NCBI GenBank assembly: GCA_003280655.1
Contig: QCEK01000010.1
Coordinates: forward strand, 1 to 52,305
Direction: 5' to 3'
Length of the DNA: 52,305 bases
Source of the DNA: Prochlorococcus sp. AG-355-O17
GTDB taxonomy: Bacteria; Cyanobacteriota; Cyanobacteriia; PCC-6307; Cyanobiaceae
Shown here: positions 1,881-40,276 of the stretch, one piece after another
Layout: each line of letters starts with the position of its first letter
Numbering within the stretch: the stretch's first letter is position 1
Program-made: the position numbers and the translations under genes
Notes under the pieces: model-generated
Databases searched by the model: none
Told to the model about the DNA's origin: nothing
Seen by the model: only the letters and a program-made list of their open reading frames with translations

Positions 1881-3071
1881 ATGAGTTTTAAAAAAAAAAT
1901 AAACGATATTAAGAAAAATTATTCCCTAGGAATAATTGGGGGTGGTCAACTGGCGTTGATGTTAACCGAGGCAGCCAAAAAAAGAGATTTAGAAGTATGT
2001 GTGCAAACAAAATCTTGTGATGATCCTGCGGGTTCAAAAGCAGATCATGTCATTGAAGCTGATCCTTTAAAGATAAGAGGTAATAAATCATTAATTAATG
2101 AGTGTGAAAAAATAATTTTTGAAAATGAATGGATAAAAATTGATAAATTAAATTTAATTGGCAATAACGATATTTTTGTTCCAAGCCTTAATGCAATTAA
2201 GCCATTAGTAGATAGATTTTCTCAAAAAAAATTAATAGATAGATTGAATATTCCCTGTCCAAAATGGATAAGTATTGAAGATTTTAAAAATCTCTCGGAT
2301 GAGGAAATCAAAAATTGGACTTTTCCTCTAATGGCAAAATCAAATAAAGGTGGATATGACGGTAAAGGGAACAAAAAAATAAAGACAAAAGAAGATTTAG
2401 ATTCTTTTTTAACAAAGAATAATTCTGATGAATGGTTAATAGAAGAATGGATAGAGTATGAAAAAGAACTGGCTCTTGTTGGTTCAAGAGATAGGACGGG
2501 TAAGATAAGATTCTTTCCAATAGTTGAGACGTTCCAATCAAACCATGTTTGTGATTGGGTTCTTGCACCTGGAACAAATGAATATGATTTGAACTTATTT
2601 GCAATAAATATTTTCTCCTCAATAGTCAATGAACTTAATTACGTTGGAGTTTTAGCTATTGAATTCTTCTATGGAGATAATGGTCTTTTAATTAATGAAA
2701 TAGCTCCTAGAACACATAACTCAGCTCATTTCTCTATTGAAGCTTGCACTTCAAGTCAGTTTGATCAATATGTTTGCATTTCTTCTGGGATAATGCCACC
2801 TGAAATTAAAATGAACTGTGAAGGTGCAATTATGATAAATCTACTGGGGTTAAAAAAGAATTTCCCAATCTCAATGGAAACCAGAATTAAAATGTTATCT
2901 GAAATTGAGGGGTCTAATATGCATTGTTATGGCAAATCTCGCGAAATTCTGGGAAGAAAAATGGCTCACATCACATTTTTATTAAATGGTAAAACGTATT
3001 CAGAAAGATATGATGAAGCTCAAATTTTATTAACTATGGTAAGAGACATTTGGCCATCTCCAAATGCATAA
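1881..3071 (+). CDS. purK: N5-carboxyaminoimidazole ribonucleotide synthase (PurK)
   Basis: This ATP-grasp enzyme carboxylates AIR with bicarbonate in de novo purine synthesis. The N-terminal LGIIGGGQLALMLTEAAKK motif (residues ~16-34), the GGYDGKGN ATP-grasp loop and the EIAPRTHNSAHFSIEAC active-site segment are diagnostic. At 396 residues it is the usual length. There is a weak ribosome-binding region before ATG 1881, as is usual here. The 6Sa RNA gene follows directly on the same strand, an arrangement known from other cyanobacteria. Confidence 0.96.
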   Translation: MSFKKKINDIKKNYSLGIIGGGQLALMLTEAAKKRDLEVCVQTKSCDDPAGSKADHVIEADPLKIRGNKSLINECEKIIFENEWIKIDKLNLIGNNDIFVPSLNAIKPLVDRFSQKKLIDRLNIPCPKWISIEDFKNLSDEEIKNWTFPLMAKSNKGGYDGKGNKKIKTKEDLDSFLTKNNSDEWLIEEWIEYEKELALVGSRDRTGKIRFFPIVETFQSNHVCDWVLAPGTNEYDLNLFAINIFSSIVNELNYVGVLAIEFFYGDNGLLINEIAPRTHNSAHFSIEACTSSQFDQYVCISSGIMPPEIKMNCEGAIMINLLGLKKNFPISMETRIKMLSEIEGSNMHCYGKSREILGRKMAHITFLLNGKTYSERYDEAQILLTMVRDIWPSPNA

Positions 3072-3089
3072 AAAAATAAGTTAGAGTTA

Positions 3090-3271
3090 GATTACTGGAT
3101 CTTTGGTTAAGTTCTTCTTTATGTGCTCTGATCTGACTCTCTTTCGACATGAGGAGACTGTCGTGATGCGGTAGTAAACCGATCTTGTAATCGGAAACGA
3201 AAGCCCACTTTGAATCCTCTTCTGGCATTTCCAGGTCGATGCAGCAGAGAACTGACGGGGATCCGGTGTTA
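3090..3271 (+). ncRNA. ssrS: 6Sa RNA (cyanobacterial 6S RNA)
   Basis: 6S RNA mimics an open promoter and binds RNA polymerase. The stretch is much richer in G+C than its surroundings and has no convincing frame. Its ends pair: ACTGGATC (3094-3101) with GATCCGGT (3260-3267), and GTTCT near 3111 with CAGAGAAC near 3246. The length of about 182 nt and the location just downstream of purK fit the 6Sa gene (Yfr7 of Prochlorococcus). The exact ends are estimated from the pairing. Confidence 0.85.
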
Positions 3272-3273
3272 CC

Positions 3274-3379: not shown

Positions 3380-3409
3380 TTGACGATCCATTGTTCATAT
3401 ATTTATATT
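3380..3409 (+). promoter_or_regulatory. Sigma-70-type promoter of DUF1651 operon 1
   Basis: TTGACG (3380-3385) and TATATT (3404-3409) are spaced by 18 bp (17 bp if TTATAT at 3403 is used). The same TTGACG/TATATT pair recurs before the second DUF1651 gene at 5829-5857, which makes chance less likely. Confidence 0.55.
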
Positions 3410-3411
3410 AA

Positions 3412-3430
3412 TAGTACACATGTATTACTA
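3412..3430. promoter_or_regulatory. LexA-like box overlapping the start site, copy 1
   Basis: AGTACACATGTATT (3413-3426) matches the proposed cyanobacterial LexA consensus RGTACNNNDGTWCB except for T in place of the second conserved C. It lies just downstream of the -10 element, where a repressor would block initiation. An equivalent box with the same deviation sits at 5861. Confidence 0.45.
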
Positions 3431-3434
3431 AGTA

Positions 3435-3734
3435 ATGACTTTAGGAGGAGCTAATGTTTGGACTAATTTTTCTTACGGTTATCGTAATGAGTCCCCAAGT
3501 GGTTGGTTGCTTAGCCCAGATCGCAGAAGATTAATTTTATTTACAAGGAATAAAAAATCCCCAAGAAATAGTATGAGAATTTTTGCTCATATATATTATG
3601 CAAATGATCTTGGTGAGCCAATGGCAATTAAATCATCCACTCAAATGTATTTGGATAATGCTTGGGATAAATGGCATGATCTTCAATTAGAAGGTTGGAC
3701 TTTTGAAGAACTTGAATTACCTGAATCAGTATGA
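3435..3734 (+). CDS. DUF1651 domain protein, copy 1
   Basis: DUF1651 proteins are short, of unknown function and found mainly in marine picocyanobacteria. The family marks are SGWLLSPDRRR (residues ~22-32), FAHIYYANDLGEPMAIK and AWDKWHDLQLEGW. Copy 2 at 5881 shares the N-terminal pattern MTxGxANVxTxF and the same promoter architecture. ATG 3435 has no Shine-Dalgarno sequence; the AGGAGGAG at 3443-3450 sits inside the gene and serves another ATG at 3454. The stop overlaps the next ATG (ATGA), so this is the first gene of a three-gene chain. Function unknown. Confidence 0.8.
   Translation: MTLGGANVWTNFSYGYRNESPSGWLLSPDRRRLILFTRNKKSPRNSMRIFAHIYYANDLGEPMAIKSSTQMYLDNAWDKWHDLQLEGWTFEELELPESV
3454..3534 (+). 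CDS. Overlapping 26-residue hydrophobic peptide in +1 frame of DUF1651 copy 1
   Basis: An ideal AGGAGG lies about 7 bases before ATG 3454. The frame runs 26 codons: it begins MFGLIF, continues with a hydrophobic stretch, then PQVVGCL and a short polar tail. A frame of identical length and offset (19 bp after the DUF1651 ATG) exists in copy 2 at 5900. Between the copies MFGLIF is identical, although the DNA differs at codon third positions that alter the DUF1651 frame. The peptide could be a single membrane helix; the VGC is partly forced by the conserved GWL of the host frame. No family recognised. Confidence 0.45.
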   Translation: MFGLIFLTVIVMSPQVVGCLAQIAED

Positions 3735-3871
3735 CTAACTTAAACCCAATCAAAAAGAAACTATCAAAAGCTGATAGAAAGATATCTACACAAGACCCAT
3801 CAAAATTATTAGCAGATTTTTTTAATGGTGTTGTCATTGAACTTGATGAAGAATATAAATATGACTCATAA
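3731..3871 (+). CDS. 46-residue hypothetical protein
   Basis: The ATG overlaps the DUF1651 stop as ATGA, so translation is probably coupled. The product begins MTNLNPIKKKLSKADRK, is Lys-rich at the N-terminus, and ends with an acidic helix-like segment containing FFNGVVIELDEE. It has no signal peptide or membrane segment, and no family is recognised. It overlaps the next gene by 11 bp. Confidence 0.55.
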   Translation: MTNLNPIKKKLSKADRKISTQDPSKLLADFFNGVVIELDEEYKYDS

Positions 3872-4010
3872 AGAATTGATAGATCAAGTTTCCGCAAATT
3901 TATTTAAGCAAAGTGGAAAGTTAGAAAGCAGAAGATCCTGGTTGGCAATGAGAAATTATCTTGAACAATTAGATAGTGAACAACTTAAATCTATGCTTAA
4001 GGACCACTGA
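3861..4010 (+). CDS. 49-residue hypothetical protein, YLxQL-QLK family
   Basis: I chose ATG 3861 over the in-frame ATG 3825 because it gives a short overlap with the upstream gene and starts with a normal MTHKELIDQ helix. The C-terminal half, RRSWLAMRNYLEQLDSEQLK, resembles the product at 17773 (IYSYLTQLNKKQLKAIA), so the two are likely paralogs. Probably a small helical cytosolic protein of unknown function. Third gene of the DUF1651 operon. Confidence 0.6.
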   Translation: MTHKELIDQVSANLFKQSGKLESRRSWLAMRNYLEQLDSEQLKSMLKDH

Positions 4011-4023
4011 TGATTTAAAAACT

Positions 4024-4137
4024 TTATTTAGTTTTTATTTTTTTCTTAATTCTTAGATAACCATAAGTTCCAAAACCAACCAAGAACATGTCCAAATAAA
4101 TATGCCAAGTAGGAAAAATCTGGTGTATTAATTCCAT
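4024..4137 (-). CDS. 37-residue small protein after the ligase-like gene
   Basis: Its ATG shares one base with the stop of the ligase-like gene (TAATG), typical of coupled genes. The product begins MELIHQIFPTWHIY, has a short hydrophobic centre (MFLVGFGTYGYL) and a Lys-rich end. A membrane association is possible. No family recognised. Confidence 0.5.
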   Translation of the reverse strand: MELIHQIFPTWHIYLDMFLVGFGTYGYLRIKKKIKTK

Positions 4138-4886
4138 TAATTTTTTATTGCCACTTGCCAATAAGGATAATCTAAATTTGATTTTTCTCTGATTAATTGT
4201 AATTTTCTAGAATTTATTTTTACTACTATTCCATCTGTTGGATATTTACTAAAAAGCTTCCCTTCTAACCATTGTTTTCTAAATAGTTCAACTTGGCTCG
4301 TAAAGTTGCATGAAATATCTTGAGGGATAGTGAAGCCTAGCTTAGCAAGACTCTTTTTGGACTCATATTGGTTTAGTGTTGAATTAAGTATTTGAAATGC
4401 GCAGAAGCTAAGACTTTCAGAAAATCCTTCTTTAGCTCTTAGAAATCCAGAAGCCATTCTCTGGGAGATATTTGGACTTTGGTTGGGTGCATATAATTCA
4501 CCTCTAACTTGAAGAACTCCTCGTAAAGGGAGATTATTGGGAATGTCTTGGACTTTAATAAGTTTACTAGTAACGTCTGCCCCTTTTCTTGAAATTGCTT
4601 TCTCCAAGGTTCCATCCCTATATTGCAAAGCAACAGCACAACCATCAATTTTTGGTTCAATTAATAATCTGGTATCTACTAATAATCCTTTCAAAAATTC
4701 ATCTATTGAATCCTTTTCTAATGAAGGTAAAACTAGTTTATTTTCCTTTTTAAAGTAATCACAATTAGGGTTTGTTCTTAATAAATTTTTTTCAAGTTGG
4801 TCGAACTGCTTATCAGAGATTAAAGCATTACCATTTCTATAATTATCGTCATACCATTCAATTCGTTCTTCTAAATAAGTCTTCAT
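4137..4886 (-). CDS. Stand-alone NAD+-dependent DNA ligase adenylation domain
   Basis: At 249 residues this is about one third of a normal LigA (~670). Residues 1-70 resemble LigA domain Ia (WYDDNYRNGNALISDKQFDQLEK, NP). The nucleotidyltransferase motifs follow: EPKIDG with the adenylated Lys at ~79, RKGADVT, RGELY (~128), DGIVVKI (~218), and the protein stops at motif V (YWQVAIKN). The OB fold, zinc finger, HhH and BRCT domains are absent. The motifs required for self-adenylation look intact, so this is unlikely to be a fresh pseudogene. It may need a partner to seal DNA. Unrelated to the ATP-dependent ligase at 37.6 kb. Confidence 0.8.
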   Translation of the reverse strand: MKTYLEERIEWYDDNYRNGNALISDKQFDQLEKNLLRTNPNCDYFKKENKLVLPSLEKDSIDEFLKGLLVDTRLLIEPKIDGCAVALQYRDGTLEKAISRKGADVTSKLIKVQDIPNNLPLRGVLQVRGELYAPNQSPNISQRMASGFLRAKEGFSESLSFCAFQILNSTLNQYESKKSLAKLGFTIPQDISCNFTSQVELFRKQWLEGKLFSKYPTDGIVVKINSRKLQLIREKSNLDYPYWQVAIKN

Positions 4887-5093
4887 TTAATACGATGGCT
4901 TAAGTTTTTGGTCTGGTATCCAACTTGGTTTATCTATAATCCATTTTTCTTTATCTTCATATTTAACAGTCCATAAAAGAAAAGAAGAAATTTCTTCTAG
5001 AGTTTTGCCAGCCAAATATCTTGTTTTTGGGCTTATTGATATAAATCCAAATAATAATATTAATAAAATAAGTTTAAACATACCTTGAATCAT
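4887..5093 (-). CDS. 68-residue membrane/secreted small protein
   Basis: The hydrophobic N-terminus (FKLILLILLFGFISIS) could be a signal anchor; the rest is Trp- and Lys-rich and ends KPSWIPDQKLKPSY. The stop abuts the start of the ligase-like gene with no gap, which suggests co-transcription. A second in-frame ATG four codons in (MFKLIL) is an equally good start. Function unknown. Confidence 0.6.
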   Translation of the reverse strand: MIQGMFKLILLILLFGFISISPKTRYLAGKTLEEISSFLLWTVKYEDKEKWIIDKPSWIPDQKLKPSY

Positions 5094-5125
5094 TTAAAAA
5101 AATCAGCGTAATTTTTGCGAACTTT

Positions 5126-5383
5126 TTAATTAATGCAATTCTTATAACCTTCAATCTTTGCTAGTTCATCAATATTCAAACCTGTTTCTTCTAGTAAAGT
5201 TTCCCCTATATCGTCCTTATTAAATTTAGTTAAAGCCCCTTTAGTAGAGTACTTAATACATTGGTTTTGGTATTTTGCTTCTTTGACAACAGGAGATAAA
5301 TAAAAACCAAACAAGATGATAAAAGCCCCATAGGTTACTACTTTTCTATGGTTTTTCCACCATTCATAAAATTTATTGGACAC
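5126..5383 (-). CDS. 85-residue single-pass membrane protein with two Cys
   Basis: A basic N-terminus (WWKNHRK) is followed by one membrane helix (TYGAFIILFGFYLSPVV) and a C-terminal domain with Cys near residues 42 and 83. The plan resembles the proteins at 12809 and 45504: one helix, then a C...C tail. Function unknown. It lies 32 bp upstream of the 68-residue gene, probably the same operon. Confidence 0.65.
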   Translation of the reverse strand: MSNKFYEWWKNHRKVVTYGAFIILFGFYLSPVVKEAKYQNQCIKYSTKGALTKFNKDDIGETLLEETGLNIDELAKIEGYKNCIN

Positions 5384-5452
5384 GAAAAATAAATGATTAT
5401 TTTCTATTTTAAATTGACTGTCAACAAATTACTTTAGAAATTTAAGGATTGG

Positions 5453-5761
5453 TTAATTTATTGTTTTTTCATAAATAGATTTAACCCAAGAATAATATCT
5501 TGATTTTCTAATCCTTTGCTCTTTCGAGACTAATCTATCCGCAGATTCTAGGGGTGATTCTCCTTTCTCAACTTTAGTTGTAATAGAAATACCAAAACCT
5601 TTTGCTTCAATTTTTGCAATGCCACCCTCTAAAAAAAATAAAAAAGACCAACCTTTGTTCCATCCTAAATAGAAGGGATTTCGATACATTGCATTCTTTT
5701 GGAGATACTCTTTAAATAATATTTTGCTTTTCAAGGAGTTACTTGTATTCACTATTACCAA
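5453..5761 (-). CDS. 102-residue hypothetical protein
   Basis: A soluble-looking protein containing YRNPFYLGWNKGW, FFLEGGIAKIEAKGFG and a basic C-terminus (KEQRIRKSRYYSWVK). I do not recognise a family. Start context is weak; an in-frame ATG at MYRNPF is an alternative. It is divergent from DUF1651 copy 2. Confidence 0.55.
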   Translation of the reverse strand: MVIVNTSNSLKSKILFKEYLQKNAMYRNPFYLGWNKGWSFLFFLEGGIAKIEAKGFGISITTKVEKGESPLESADRLVSKEQRIRKSRYYSWVKSIYEKTIN

Positions 5762-5828
5762 ATAAGAAGTTTAGGCTGATTATTTCTGGAAAGTAATTTT
5801 ACTATTTAAATAATTACCAGAGGAACAC

Positions 5829-5857
5829 TTGACGTCTGCGAGTAGTACATTTATATT
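5829..5857 (+). promoter_or_regulatory. Sigma-70-type promoter of DUF1651 copy 2
   Basis: TTGACG (5829-5834), a 17-bp spacer and TATATT (5852-5857), repeating the arrangement before copy 1. The spacer also carries an AGTACA half-site at 5844-5849. Confidence 0.6.
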
Positions 5858-5859
5858 AT

Positions 5860-5875
5860 TAGTACATCTGTATTA
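5860..5875. promoter_or_regulatory. LexA-like box overlapping the start site, copy 2
   Basis: AGTACATCTGTATT (5861-5874) has the same spacing and the same single departure (T for C) from RGTACNNNDGTWCB as the box at 3413. It lies 3 bp after the -10 element. Confidence 0.45.
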
Positions 5876-5880
5876 TCTTC

Positions 5881-6171
5881 ATGACTTCAGGAGTCGCTAA
5901 TGTTCGGACTTATTTTTATCGTGGCAGCCTTATTGACCCCCCAACTGGCTGGTTGTTTAACAAAAAAAGTGATTTATTAATTTTTTTTGAGAGTTATAAG
6001 AAATCTGTATCTAATAACTTAAAAGTATATACTCATCTTTTCTATGCAAATGAATTAGGTGAACCAGCCCAAATTAAAAATTCAAGACTTCATTCTATTG
6101 AGTGTGCTTGTGAAACATGGAATGAATTAATTTCAGGAGGTTGGCAAATTGTTACTAATAAATTCCAGTAA
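5881..6171 (+). CDS. DUF1651 domain protein, copy 2
   Basis: 96 residues, aligned without gaps to copy 1 through the N-terminus (MTSGVANVRTYF) and PTGWLF, then YTHLFYANELGEPAQIK and a C-terminal ETWNELISGGW. Function unknown. ATG 5881 lacks a Shine-Dalgarno sequence. A different small gene follows here (Cys-rich protein at 6174), so the downstream partners of the two DUF1651 copies are not conserved. Confidence 0.8.
   Translation: MTSGVANVRTYFYRGSLIDPPTGWLFNKKSDLLIFFESYKKSVSNNLKVYTHLFYANELGEPAQIKNSRLHSIECACETWNELISGGWQIVTNKFQ
5900..5980 (+). CDS. Overlapping 26-residue hydrophobic peptide in +1 frame of DUF1651 copy 2
   Basis: ATG 5900 follows AGGAG at a suitable distance. The frame is again exactly 26 codons: MFGLIF, a hydrophobic run, PQLAGCL, then a KK-containing tail. 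Relative to copy 1, TTT/TTC, CTA/CTT and TGC/TGT changes are silent here but cause W/R, N/Y and L/F in DUF1651. This is suggestive of coding constraint, although only two copies can be compared. Confidence 0.45.
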   Translation: MFGLIFIVAALLTPQLAGCLTKKVIY

Positions 6172-6609: not shown

Positions 6610-6691
6610 AAAATAATAAATCAGCATTTTTACTGATTTACTTTCTTAATAAGTAAGGCGTAGGTTTAACTTATTGAATAGGAGGGATCAA

Positions 6692-6733
6692 ATGATTGAC
6701 AGTCCACCAGAGGAGTTAAGTTATAAAATTTAA
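6692..6733 (+). CDS. 13-codon micro-ORF with strong ribosome-binding site
   Basis: AGGAGGG lies about 6 bases before ATG 6692, far better than most genes in this window. The peptide would be MIDSPPEELSYKI. A strong intrinsic terminator follows at 6760, so the whole unit fits in a short transcript. It could be a leader-type peptide, a translated small RNA or a remnant. Confidence 0.35.
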   Translation: MIDSPPEELSYKI

Positions 6734-6759
6734 ATCTAAATAAAACTAATGCTAAATCT

Positions 6760-6794
6760 GGAATGAATCTTCTATTTGAGATTCATTCCTTTTT
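6760..6794 (+). terminator. Strong intrinsic terminator
   Basis: GGAATGAATCT (6760-6770) pairs perfectly with AGATTCATTCC (6779-6789) and is followed by a T-run to 6794. It ends the transcript carrying the 13-codon micro-ORF. Confidence 0.8.
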
Positions 6795-39289: not shown

Positions 39290-40276
39290 TTATTTACCGA
39301 ATAAAAGGACATTTATTGATTCCTTTTCAACTAAATATTTACTTAAGGCTTCACTATCTCCATGATGAAAAAATACATTTTTTGCTTCAGACTTTTTTAC
39401 TACTTCCAGAATTCCATCCCAATCCGCATGATCAGAGATTGCGAATCCTTTATCATATCCTGATCTTTTTCTTAGAGCTCTTATTGACATCCAACCACTC
39501 GCGAAAGCTGTTTGAATGTTTTTGAAATTTTTTAAATAAGATCCCTTACTTAAAGACGGCGGTAATAATATTAGACTTCCTTTAAGTTCATCTATCTTTT
39601 TTTTATTTTCAATTTTTATAGTTTCTTTAATATCAATTCCAAGTTCCCTATAACTATTGTTCATTTTGTGAATGCTGCCATGGGAATAAATATTGCCTTT
39701 AAAATTTGTTTGACTAATTTCGTTTAACAATCTCTGAGCTTTTCCAAGTGAATAGCAGAAAAGTAAAGAAGTTTTTTCTGGTGAATTAATTATCCATTTT
39801 GAAATATCATTTGCTATTTTATTTGATTCATCCCATTTAAATATTGGCAAACCAAAAGTACATTCGCTTATTAAATAATCAGTTTTTACTATTTCATATT
39901 GTTTGCAAGTCTGGTCTTTTTGAAGCTTAAAGTCACCTGAAATTAGCCATTTTTCTTCAGCAAAAATAAACCTTATTTGACTAGATCCAAGGATGTGACC
40001 GGATGGATGAAAAGAAATATTAATGCCATTAATCTTAAATTCTTCTCCATATTCAAAAGTCTTAATTTTGATATTATCTCCAACTCTTTCTTTAAGAAGT
40101 ATCGCAGTTTCCTTAGTAGAAATGTATTCTTCACAGCCAAATGTAAAGTGATCAAAATGAGCATGAGTTATTAATGCCTTTTTTACTGGCTTGCTTGGAT
40201 CAATCCAAATATCAGCAAGTTCACAATAAAGATTTCCATCTTTATATCTAATTAAATATTCTTGTTTAGTTCTCAA
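39290..40276 (-). CDS. Ligase-associated exonuclease, metallo-beta-lactamase/beta-CASP
   Basis: 328 residues. The metal site is HAHFDH (~38-43), with HPSGHILGS, ISGDF and a C-terminal SDHADWDG plus FHHGD. Family of CPSF-73/SNM1-type nucleases. First gene of the four-gene cassette. Confidence 0.92.
   Translation of the reverse strand: MRTKQEYLIRYKDGNLYCELADIWIDPSKPVKKALITHAHFDHFTFGCEEYISTKETAILLKERVGDNIKIKTFEYGEEFKINGINISFHPSGHILGSSQIRFIFAEEKWLISGDFKLQKDQTCKQYEIVKTDYLISECTFGLPIFKWDESNKIANDISKWIINSPEKTSLLFCYSLGKAQRLLNEISQTNFKGNIYSHGSIHKMNNSYRELGIDIKETIKIENKKKIDELKGSLILLPPSLSKGSYLKNFKNIQTAFASGWMSIRALRKRSGYDKGFAISDHADWDGILEVVKKSEAKNVFFHHGDSEALSKYLVEKESINVLLFGK

Follow-up and report, generated by a model that had tools for sequence, protein, structure and literature searches.

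Two genes of the DUF1651 family (PF07864) in Prochlorococcus sp. AG-355-O17, here termed copy A and copy B, each carried a second open reading frame (ORF) of 26 codons, which opened in the +1 frame 19 nucleotides (nt) inside the annotated gene and would encode a short hydrophobic peptide. Both genes are situated on contig QCEK01000010.1, and "the window" below means the whole 52,305-nt stretch of this contig that was analyzed. We propose, at a probability of about 0.78 and from comparative sequence evidence, that the inner ORF encodes a LexA-controlled hydrophobic microprotein overprinted on DUF1651, with a start that excludes that of DUF1651. It is very probable, judging from how its homologues have diverged, that the 26-codon frame is a same-strand overlapping gene. 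Hydropathy of peptide residues 2-12 was 2.85-3.04, and the product is probably a membrane peptide.

A 26-codon frame nested in DUF1651 genes

The frame had been noticed in a reading made from the letters alone (the sequence-only reading), and its position and length were confirmed in both copies (Table 1), as was the placement of the Shine-Dalgarno sequence (AGGAGG or AGGAG), which lies 5-6 nt before the inner ATG and is not set for the DUF1651 ATG. Three base differences between copies A and B do, as claimed, change W/R, N/Y and L/F in DUF1651 without altering the peptide. That both small frames span 26 codons is true but turned out to be weak evidence, the common stop being largely forced by Leu-Ile of DUF1651 (TTA-A). 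The caution that the GC of the peptide's GCL is forced by the GWL motif of the host protein was justified; residue 19 drifted between C, Y and F. A lipoprotein reading, based on LAGC or VVGC before residue 20, was set aside, given a Tyr at that position in the majority of C-type copies and the drift of residue 19.

We collected 279 distinct homologues and assigned each to a paralogue type on its best pairwise score: 126 to A, 102 to B, 33 to C and 18 to D. The assignment was unchanged with seeds read from DNA. A protein search with DUF1651-A supplied 70 A and 69 B rows, and DUF1651 profiles were the main source of 32 of the 33 C rows and 17 of the 18 D rows. The inner ATG was present in 124/126 A, 100/102 B, 30/33 C and 13/18 D copies and the inner frame was open for exactly 26 codons in 124/126, 98/102, 33/33 and 15/18, tallies that lean upward through the part of the A and B rows fetched by an inner-ORF pattern. 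Of 266 genomes of the genus, 239 had a member of the subfamily according to a host-protein profile.

A profile built from ten inner peptides matched copies A and B and nothing else in the own genome, where free-standing peptide copies were absent at E up to 10; the other three DUF1651 genes of this genome had neither a match to it nor a like N-terminus. When 200 genomes of the family were searched, strong matches were found in 24 genomes of the window's genus (best E per genome at most 7.7e-15), and outside the genus none of these genomes gave a match better than 0.005, with weaker rows not inspected. One weak row (E 0.0037) was a D-type copy in genome G022 that begins MYGPISLT and reads beyond the usual stop. 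The copy A protein had no match among 50,697 phage records. A 42-kb contig from a viral collection (L318, IMGVR_UViG_2716884731_000001) carried an A-type copy near its end, with an intact peptide frame, a LexA-like box and downstream ORFs; this contig may be host DNA, the alternatives being an island or a phage-like element.

Selection on the two overlapping frames

Parsimony changes were reconstructed on trees of 121 A, 97 B, 31 C and 23 D sequences over the ungapped overlap and sorted by their effect in each frame. Figures are given as observed/expected changes, with expectations derived from the spectrum of synonymous changes farther downstream in the same genes, where DUF1651 is the only frame. 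The D set comprised 16 of the 18 D rows and seven intermediate, GCL-type rows that had initially been assigned to C; their removal left 16 D and 25 C sequences. Short or duplicate rows were omitted, as were L005 and L262 for D. In inner codons 2-13, changes that were silent in DUF1651 and altered the peptide numbered 15/52.1 in A (0.29), 12/40.6 in B (0.30) and 12/35.9 in C (0.33), and the same class stood at about 1.0 in the downstream control. For D the figure was 32/46.3 (0.69); removal of the GCL-type rows gave 25/30.6 (0.82) in D and 6/25.1 (0.24) in C. The lowest ratio of any downstream 12-codon control window was 0.77 in A, 0.47 in B and 0.78 in C. This pattern indicates that in A, B and C purifying selection acts on the inner frame over and above selection on the host frame.

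The reverse class, changes that altered DUF1651 and were silent in the peptide, separated the paralogues: codons 2-13 gave 4/68.0 in A (0.06), 51/50.7 in B (1.01), 26/49.5 in C (0.53) and 15/57.3 in D (0.26), with 0.16 to 0.35 in the downstream control. A Fisher test that compares the two classes with the downstream control, and needs no spectrum, returned P = 2.7e-13 for B, 6.3e-10 for C and 0.074 for D (0.51 once the GCL-type rows were removed). In B and C, the comparison of homologues shows the peptide frame to be under selection. With loci from the DUF1651-A protein search only, the two classes were 7/25.4 and 32/32.2 in B (P = 1.5e-8, n = 64) and 5/14.7 and 0/20.2 in A (n = 67). By these counts overprinting is clearest in B, where the peptide is constrained and the DUF1651 N-terminus free; in codons 2-8 of B, peptide-altering, DUF1651-silent changes numbered 2/22.2 and DUF1651-altering, peptide-silent changes 36/27.1, that is, neutral. 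A nucleotide-level cause of the conservation in B, such as an RNA element or operator, was rejected, the peptide-silent sites being neutral. Both frames of C are constrained as well, and D, on the same counts, is held mainly in DUF1651, with its peptide decaying.

The sequence-only reading had predicted that silent changes concentrate in the +1 frame. This was clearly so in copy B but not in copy A, where both frames are constrained, DUF1651 more strictly, and the only sign of the small frame is a shortage of DUF1651-silent changes; the retrieval of many A rows with DUF1651 peptides biases the set toward that tilt. The same reading took the N-terminal half of the peptide as the independent evidence, and constraint does lie mainly in codons 1-13, reaching weakly to codon 20, with a tail that has no clear constraint.

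Under coincidence, the small frame would merely arise from the T-ending codons that write a conserved DUF1651 N-terminus (NVW[ST]NFSYG). In its favor, the DUF1651 frame dominates in A and D, NVWSNFSYG in T-ending codons gives MFGLIFLM and the Leu-Ile pair forces the stop. The synonymous spectrum is, however, already contained in the expectation, yet a threefold depletion was found in A, B and C and not in D; moreover, the DUF1651 N-terminus of B is variable (VRTYFYRG, VWTNFYSG, VRTCF and others) and MFGLIFIV is retained. We regard coincidence as very improbable.

The frames also proved separable among the homologues. Three B copies (L137, L158 and L198) had a changed DUF1651 start (CTG, TTG and TTG, respectively) together with a frameshift or internal stop in DUF1651; in all three the inner ATG was intact and the peptide differed from the B consensus by 1 to 4 residues. 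At L204 the DUF1651 ATG alone was lost (ATA), and at L141 a deletion ran through the inner ORF and DUF1651 contained a stop. Indels joined the frames at two loci, in an A run at L137 (peptide tail to DUF1651) and in a C run at L140 (inner frame to DUF1651); each fusion may be a working fusion protein or an assembly error.

These two natural indels bring up programmed -1 frameshifting, in which translation would initiate at the inner ATG and slip into the DUF1651 frame, yielding a membrane-anchored DUF1651 fusion. Peptide constraint in B is strongest N-terminally and DUF1651 constraint grows toward GWL, as such a shift would have it, and B contains slippage-prone runs, ACCCCCCAA, with a seven-A run before SGLL in 79 of 102 copies. 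The A and C consensus sequences have no such run, however, leaving the slippery site unconserved across the family, and the C run of B is often interrupted (for example, GACACCCC in 12 of 102). Codons 15-20 of B and C are constrained in both frames, which is unexpected from a single shift point. The DUF1651 frame ahead of the domain had no stops in the B tree set where about eight were expected; the stops of the omitted B rows are at codons 55 and 75. The DUF1651 ATG itself was conserved (1 change compared with 24.8, 13.6 and 15.4 expected in A, B and C), which implies that both starts matter. Frameshifting is the less likely account, though not as improbable as coincidence, and we retain two overlapping genes as the preferred one.

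A number of points weigh against that preference. Loss of the small frame from homologues with DUF1651 intact had been named as the finding that would speak against the overlap, and it was found in part of the D paralogues and in A, with the opposite in the three B copies above. Specifically, the D orthologues L005 (the fifth DUF1651 gene of the own genome) and L302 (genome G210) had DUF1651 open and the inner ORF gone, and 3 of the 126 A copies lacked the peptide (two ACG starts and one early stop) with DUF1651 open over 99 amino acids (aa). Since the small frame is lost in some D and A copies and kept in B copies with a broken DUF1651, the claim is valid per paralogue and not for every such DUF1651 gene. 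TTG, the DUF1651 start codon of L158 and L198, is usable as a start codon. The Fisher test gave P = 1 in A, where the DUF1651 frame is more constrained than the peptide frame, and nearly all sites of A are conserved, so that constraint may there act at the nucleotide level. The moderately low B control window (0.47) lies beside the overlap, and peptide codons 21-26 had no clear constraint (1.14 in A, 0.62 in B and 1.07 in C). Omitted from the substitution test were all rows of L137, L140 and L141 and those with internal stops (codon 55 or 75 in two B rows, codon 88 in a single C row). A pattern holding part of the inner ORF had fetched 30 of the 126 A and 28 of the 102 B rows, and most sequences are single-cell genomes, in which rare broken copies may include assembly errors. 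Finally, the peptide was seen only overlapping DUF1651 and only in this genus, and the same-genus genome G210 (99% completeness) had no match to the peptide profile.

Promoter, start signals and proposed expression

Conservation upstream of the genes extended to the promoter, a LexA-type box and the start signals. A TTGACG/TATATT-type promoter (loose pattern) preceded 122/126 A, 101/102 B, 22/33 C and 3/18 D genes, and in copies A and B of the window a LexA-like box directly follows the -10 element. Boxes were scored with a matrix of 11 boxes picked from a table in PMC3091678, with weaker-looking entries omitted and recA and lexA boxes of relatives included. The recA box of the own genome (AGTACAGATGTACT) scored 19.0 and its lexA box (GGTACAAATGTATT) 18.4, both high partly by construction; the two best LexA-type sites of the window were the boxes of copies A and B (Table 1). 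A LexA-type box with a score of at least 8, on either strand of the 60 nt before the gene, was found in 126/126 A, 101/102 B, 33/33 C and 18/18 D copies. LexA control of these genes is likely to a high degree. The third-best LexA-type site of the window is at 40115 (+) (AGTAGAAATGTATT, score 13.0). A weaker LexA-like box (AGTACATTTATATT, score 8.8) is situated over the -10 element of copy B, at 5844-5857 (+), and by its sequence copy B may have two operators.

A Shine-Dalgarno sequence was found at the inner ATG in 126/126 A, 101/102 B, 33/33 C and 11/18 D copies, and at the DUF1651 ATG in none of the 279. The distance from the -10 element to the DUF1651 ATG was mostly 23-25 nt, from which an expected transcription start would give DUF1651 a leader of some 16-18 nt and the peptide one of about 35 nt. 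We infer that a ribosome on one start blocks the other.

We postulate that a LexA-repressed, sigma-70-type promoter produces a short-leader mRNA, the Shine-Dalgarno sequence of which would recruit ribosomes to the second ATG for synthesis of a hydrophobic peptide of ~20-26 residues, probably with a single membrane span. Some ribosomes would instead use the first ATG, 19 nt upstream and devoid of a Shine-Dalgarno sequence, to make DUF1651 with an unstructured N-terminal extension of ~22 residues. As the starts are too near each other for two ribosomes, each transcript would yield one product or the other at a time. The paralogues may divide the labor, with B serving mainly the peptide in the overlap, A and C both products and D DUF1651, and the peptide probably acts in the membrane under SOS or phage stress. 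A bolder version, which we consider rather doubtful, is that the peptide and not DUF1651 is a main reason for these genes, being released from LexA to arrest or de-energize damaged or infected cells, with the paralogues having split the frames (B the peptide, D DUF1651), a sub-functionalization between reading frames instead of domains.

The start signals would also suit an inner ORF that is translated only to regulate DUF1651, in the manner of a leader that occupies the start region, with a peptide sequence of no relevance: a strong Shine-Dalgarno sequence lies 7-8 nt past a start codon that has none, and the two starts would be mutually exclusive. Such an ORF does not predict the amino-acid selection on residues 2-13 in B and C, nor that peptide-silent sites drift neutrally in B. 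Stalling peptides are read at their C-terminus, but constraint here is N-terminal and hydrophobic, which speaks against an arrest-type leader peptide as well. We therefore rate a purely regulatory ORF as quite unlikely, somewhat below frameshifting, and favor a peptide that is itself selected.

Known systems, phage response and genomic surroundings

ComS within srfAB of Bacillus subtilis is the textbook same-strand, out-of-frame nested gene, and the inner ORF resembles it in that a longer gene carries a short peptide out of frame. Unlike in ComS/srfAB, the two frames here have a start region and a LexA-type promoter in common, and which of them is protected depends on the paralogue. Compared by description, the inner ORF is like TisB and DinQ in having a LexA-type promoter box, fewer than 30 residues and strong hydrophobicity, and unlike them in overlapping another gene out of frame, in its short predicted leader and in a Shine-Dalgarno sequence immediately before it. 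DinQ is reported as a 27-aa LexA-controlled inner-membrane peptide of Escherichia coli with antisense regulation (PMC3567139), and TisB is described with a structured leader, a sequestered ribosome-binding site and a standby site (PMC7708055). That standby site lies 100 nt upstream, and the ~35-nt leader expected here would be too short for one. From the earlier description as a LexA-controlled, TisB-like peptide, the hydrophobic frame, its own ribosome-binding site and the LexA-type boxes stand; the likeness to TisB and DinQ is one of analogy and not of membership. By that analogy, a role in slowing growth is a tentative suggestion.

Two DUF1651 genes of Prochlorococcus MED4 connect the family to phage infection. 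Genome G015 has a 6S RNA at 652620-652804 and a Cyano-1 RNA at 654509-654576, and for MED4 yfr7 is given at 652625-652844, between purK and PMM0684, and yfr3 at 654511-654604 (PMC1242208). These positions match, and the DUF1651 gene right after the 6S RNA is therefore PMM0684, with the inner ORF MFGLIFLMAVVLIHPMAGYLTRKAAF. PMM0819 is most likely the MED4 copy near 774.5 kb, the nearest of six DUF1651 matches to ~778 kb as interpolated from published gene numbers (PMC1242208); this copy adjoins hli-like ORFs (weak Pfam support). PMM0684 and PMM0819 are reported to be induced during infection by P-SSP7, and DUF1651 to be confined to marine cyanobacteria and one coliphage (PMC5490813). PMM0684-0686 are also recorded as phage-induced, along with co-induction of a PMM0684 antisense RNA that the authors view as protective and not degradative (PMC2518516). 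Three of the six MED4 DUF1651 copies matched the peptide profile, and it is no more than suggestive that both phage-induced genes are peptide-type copies.

If our interpretation is true, an overlooked peptide family resides within phage-induced genes (in MED4, PMM0684 and probably PMM0819), and two products may lie behind transcript changes credited to DUF1651. The four paralogues, with selection on both, mainly one or mainly the other frame, form a natural experiment in which the origin and decay of overprinting are traceable within one genus. Few photosynthetic cells on Earth are as abundant as those of Prochlorococcus, and to our knowledge no membrane peptide is known from its SOS or phage response. 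In the open literature on DUF1651, PMM0684/PMM0819, PMED4_07401/PMM0685/PMM0686 and cyanobacterial or Prochlorococcus overlapping genes, mostly considered by title, no description of the overlap was found. Nested overlapping genes and SOS-controlled membrane peptides are already known kinds; what appears new is an SOS-type hydrophobic peptide nested in DUF1651.

Table 1. Coordinates of features around DUF1651 copies A and B in the window
Feature	Position	Strand	Remarks
ORF	1881-3071		Upstream of 6S RNA and copy A
6S RNA	3089-3273		Rfam match
Copy A promoter	3380-3409	+	-35 TTGACG 3380-3385, 18-nt spacer, -10 TATATT 3404-3409
Copy A LexA-like box, AGTACACATGTATT	3413-3426	+	Covers expected transcription start; score 18.3
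DUF1651 copy A, 99 aa	3435-3734	+	ATG 3435, no Shine-Dalgarno there
AGGAGG Shine-Dalgarno for inner ATG, copy A	3443-3448	+	
Inner +1 ORF, copy A, MFGLIFLTVIVMSPQVVGCLAQIAED	3454-3534	+	26 codons
46-aa ORF	3731-3871	+	Shares ATGA with the DUF1651-A stop
Copy B promoter	5829-5857	+	-35 TTGACG 5829-5834, 17-nt spacer, -10 TATATT 5852-5857
Copy B LexA-like box, AGTACATCTGTATT	5861-5874	+	Score 15.7
DUF1651 copy B, 96 aa	5881-6171	+	ATG 5881, no Shine-Dalgarno there
AGGAG Shine-Dalgarno for inner ATG, copy B	5889-5893	+	
Inner +1 ORF, copy B, MFGLIFIVAALLTPQLAGCLTKKVIY	5900-5980	+	26 codons; clearest selection of the frames

The window genes belong to the DUF1651 family (39.5 and 52.2 bits for copies A and B, cut-off 22). 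Since the Pfam domain starts at residue 23 in both (residues 23-89 and 23-93), most of the inner ORF overlaps the ~22-residue N-terminal extension that precedes it. In an AlphaFold model of copy A (mean predicted local distance difference test score, pLDDT, 73), residues 1-17 had a pLDDT below 50 and were followed by an ordered beta-beta-beta-beta-alpha-beta domain. Foldseek searches with the DUF1651 model returned weak matches (best E 0.39 in PDB, with PC4 and Pur-alpha near the top, and 0.054 among viral structures) and VIA-align gave no row with a Z of 5 or more; the structural matches being weak, we claim no function for DUF1651.

The ORF upstream of the 6S RNA is presumably purK. The gene order of MED4, which places purK before the 6S RNA (PMC1242208), is in line with this. 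Downstream of copy A, the 46-aa ORF is likely coupled to DUF1651-A in one operon, and a neighbor resembling it was also found at L097, L114 and L318. Two tiny ORFs (46 and about 55-61 aa) trail A-type copies closely or with overlap in a small-operon-like arrangement (3731-4010 (+) in the window, L114 and L318); both those downstream of copy A in the window had no Pfam match. Between copies A and B lies a 249-aa ORF at 4137-4886 (-), the sole Pfam match of which is the adenylation domain of NAD-dependent DNA ligase. Downstream of copy B, a Yfr11-like small RNA was detected at 6673-6793 (+), with 43.8 bits against an Rfam cut-off of 44.

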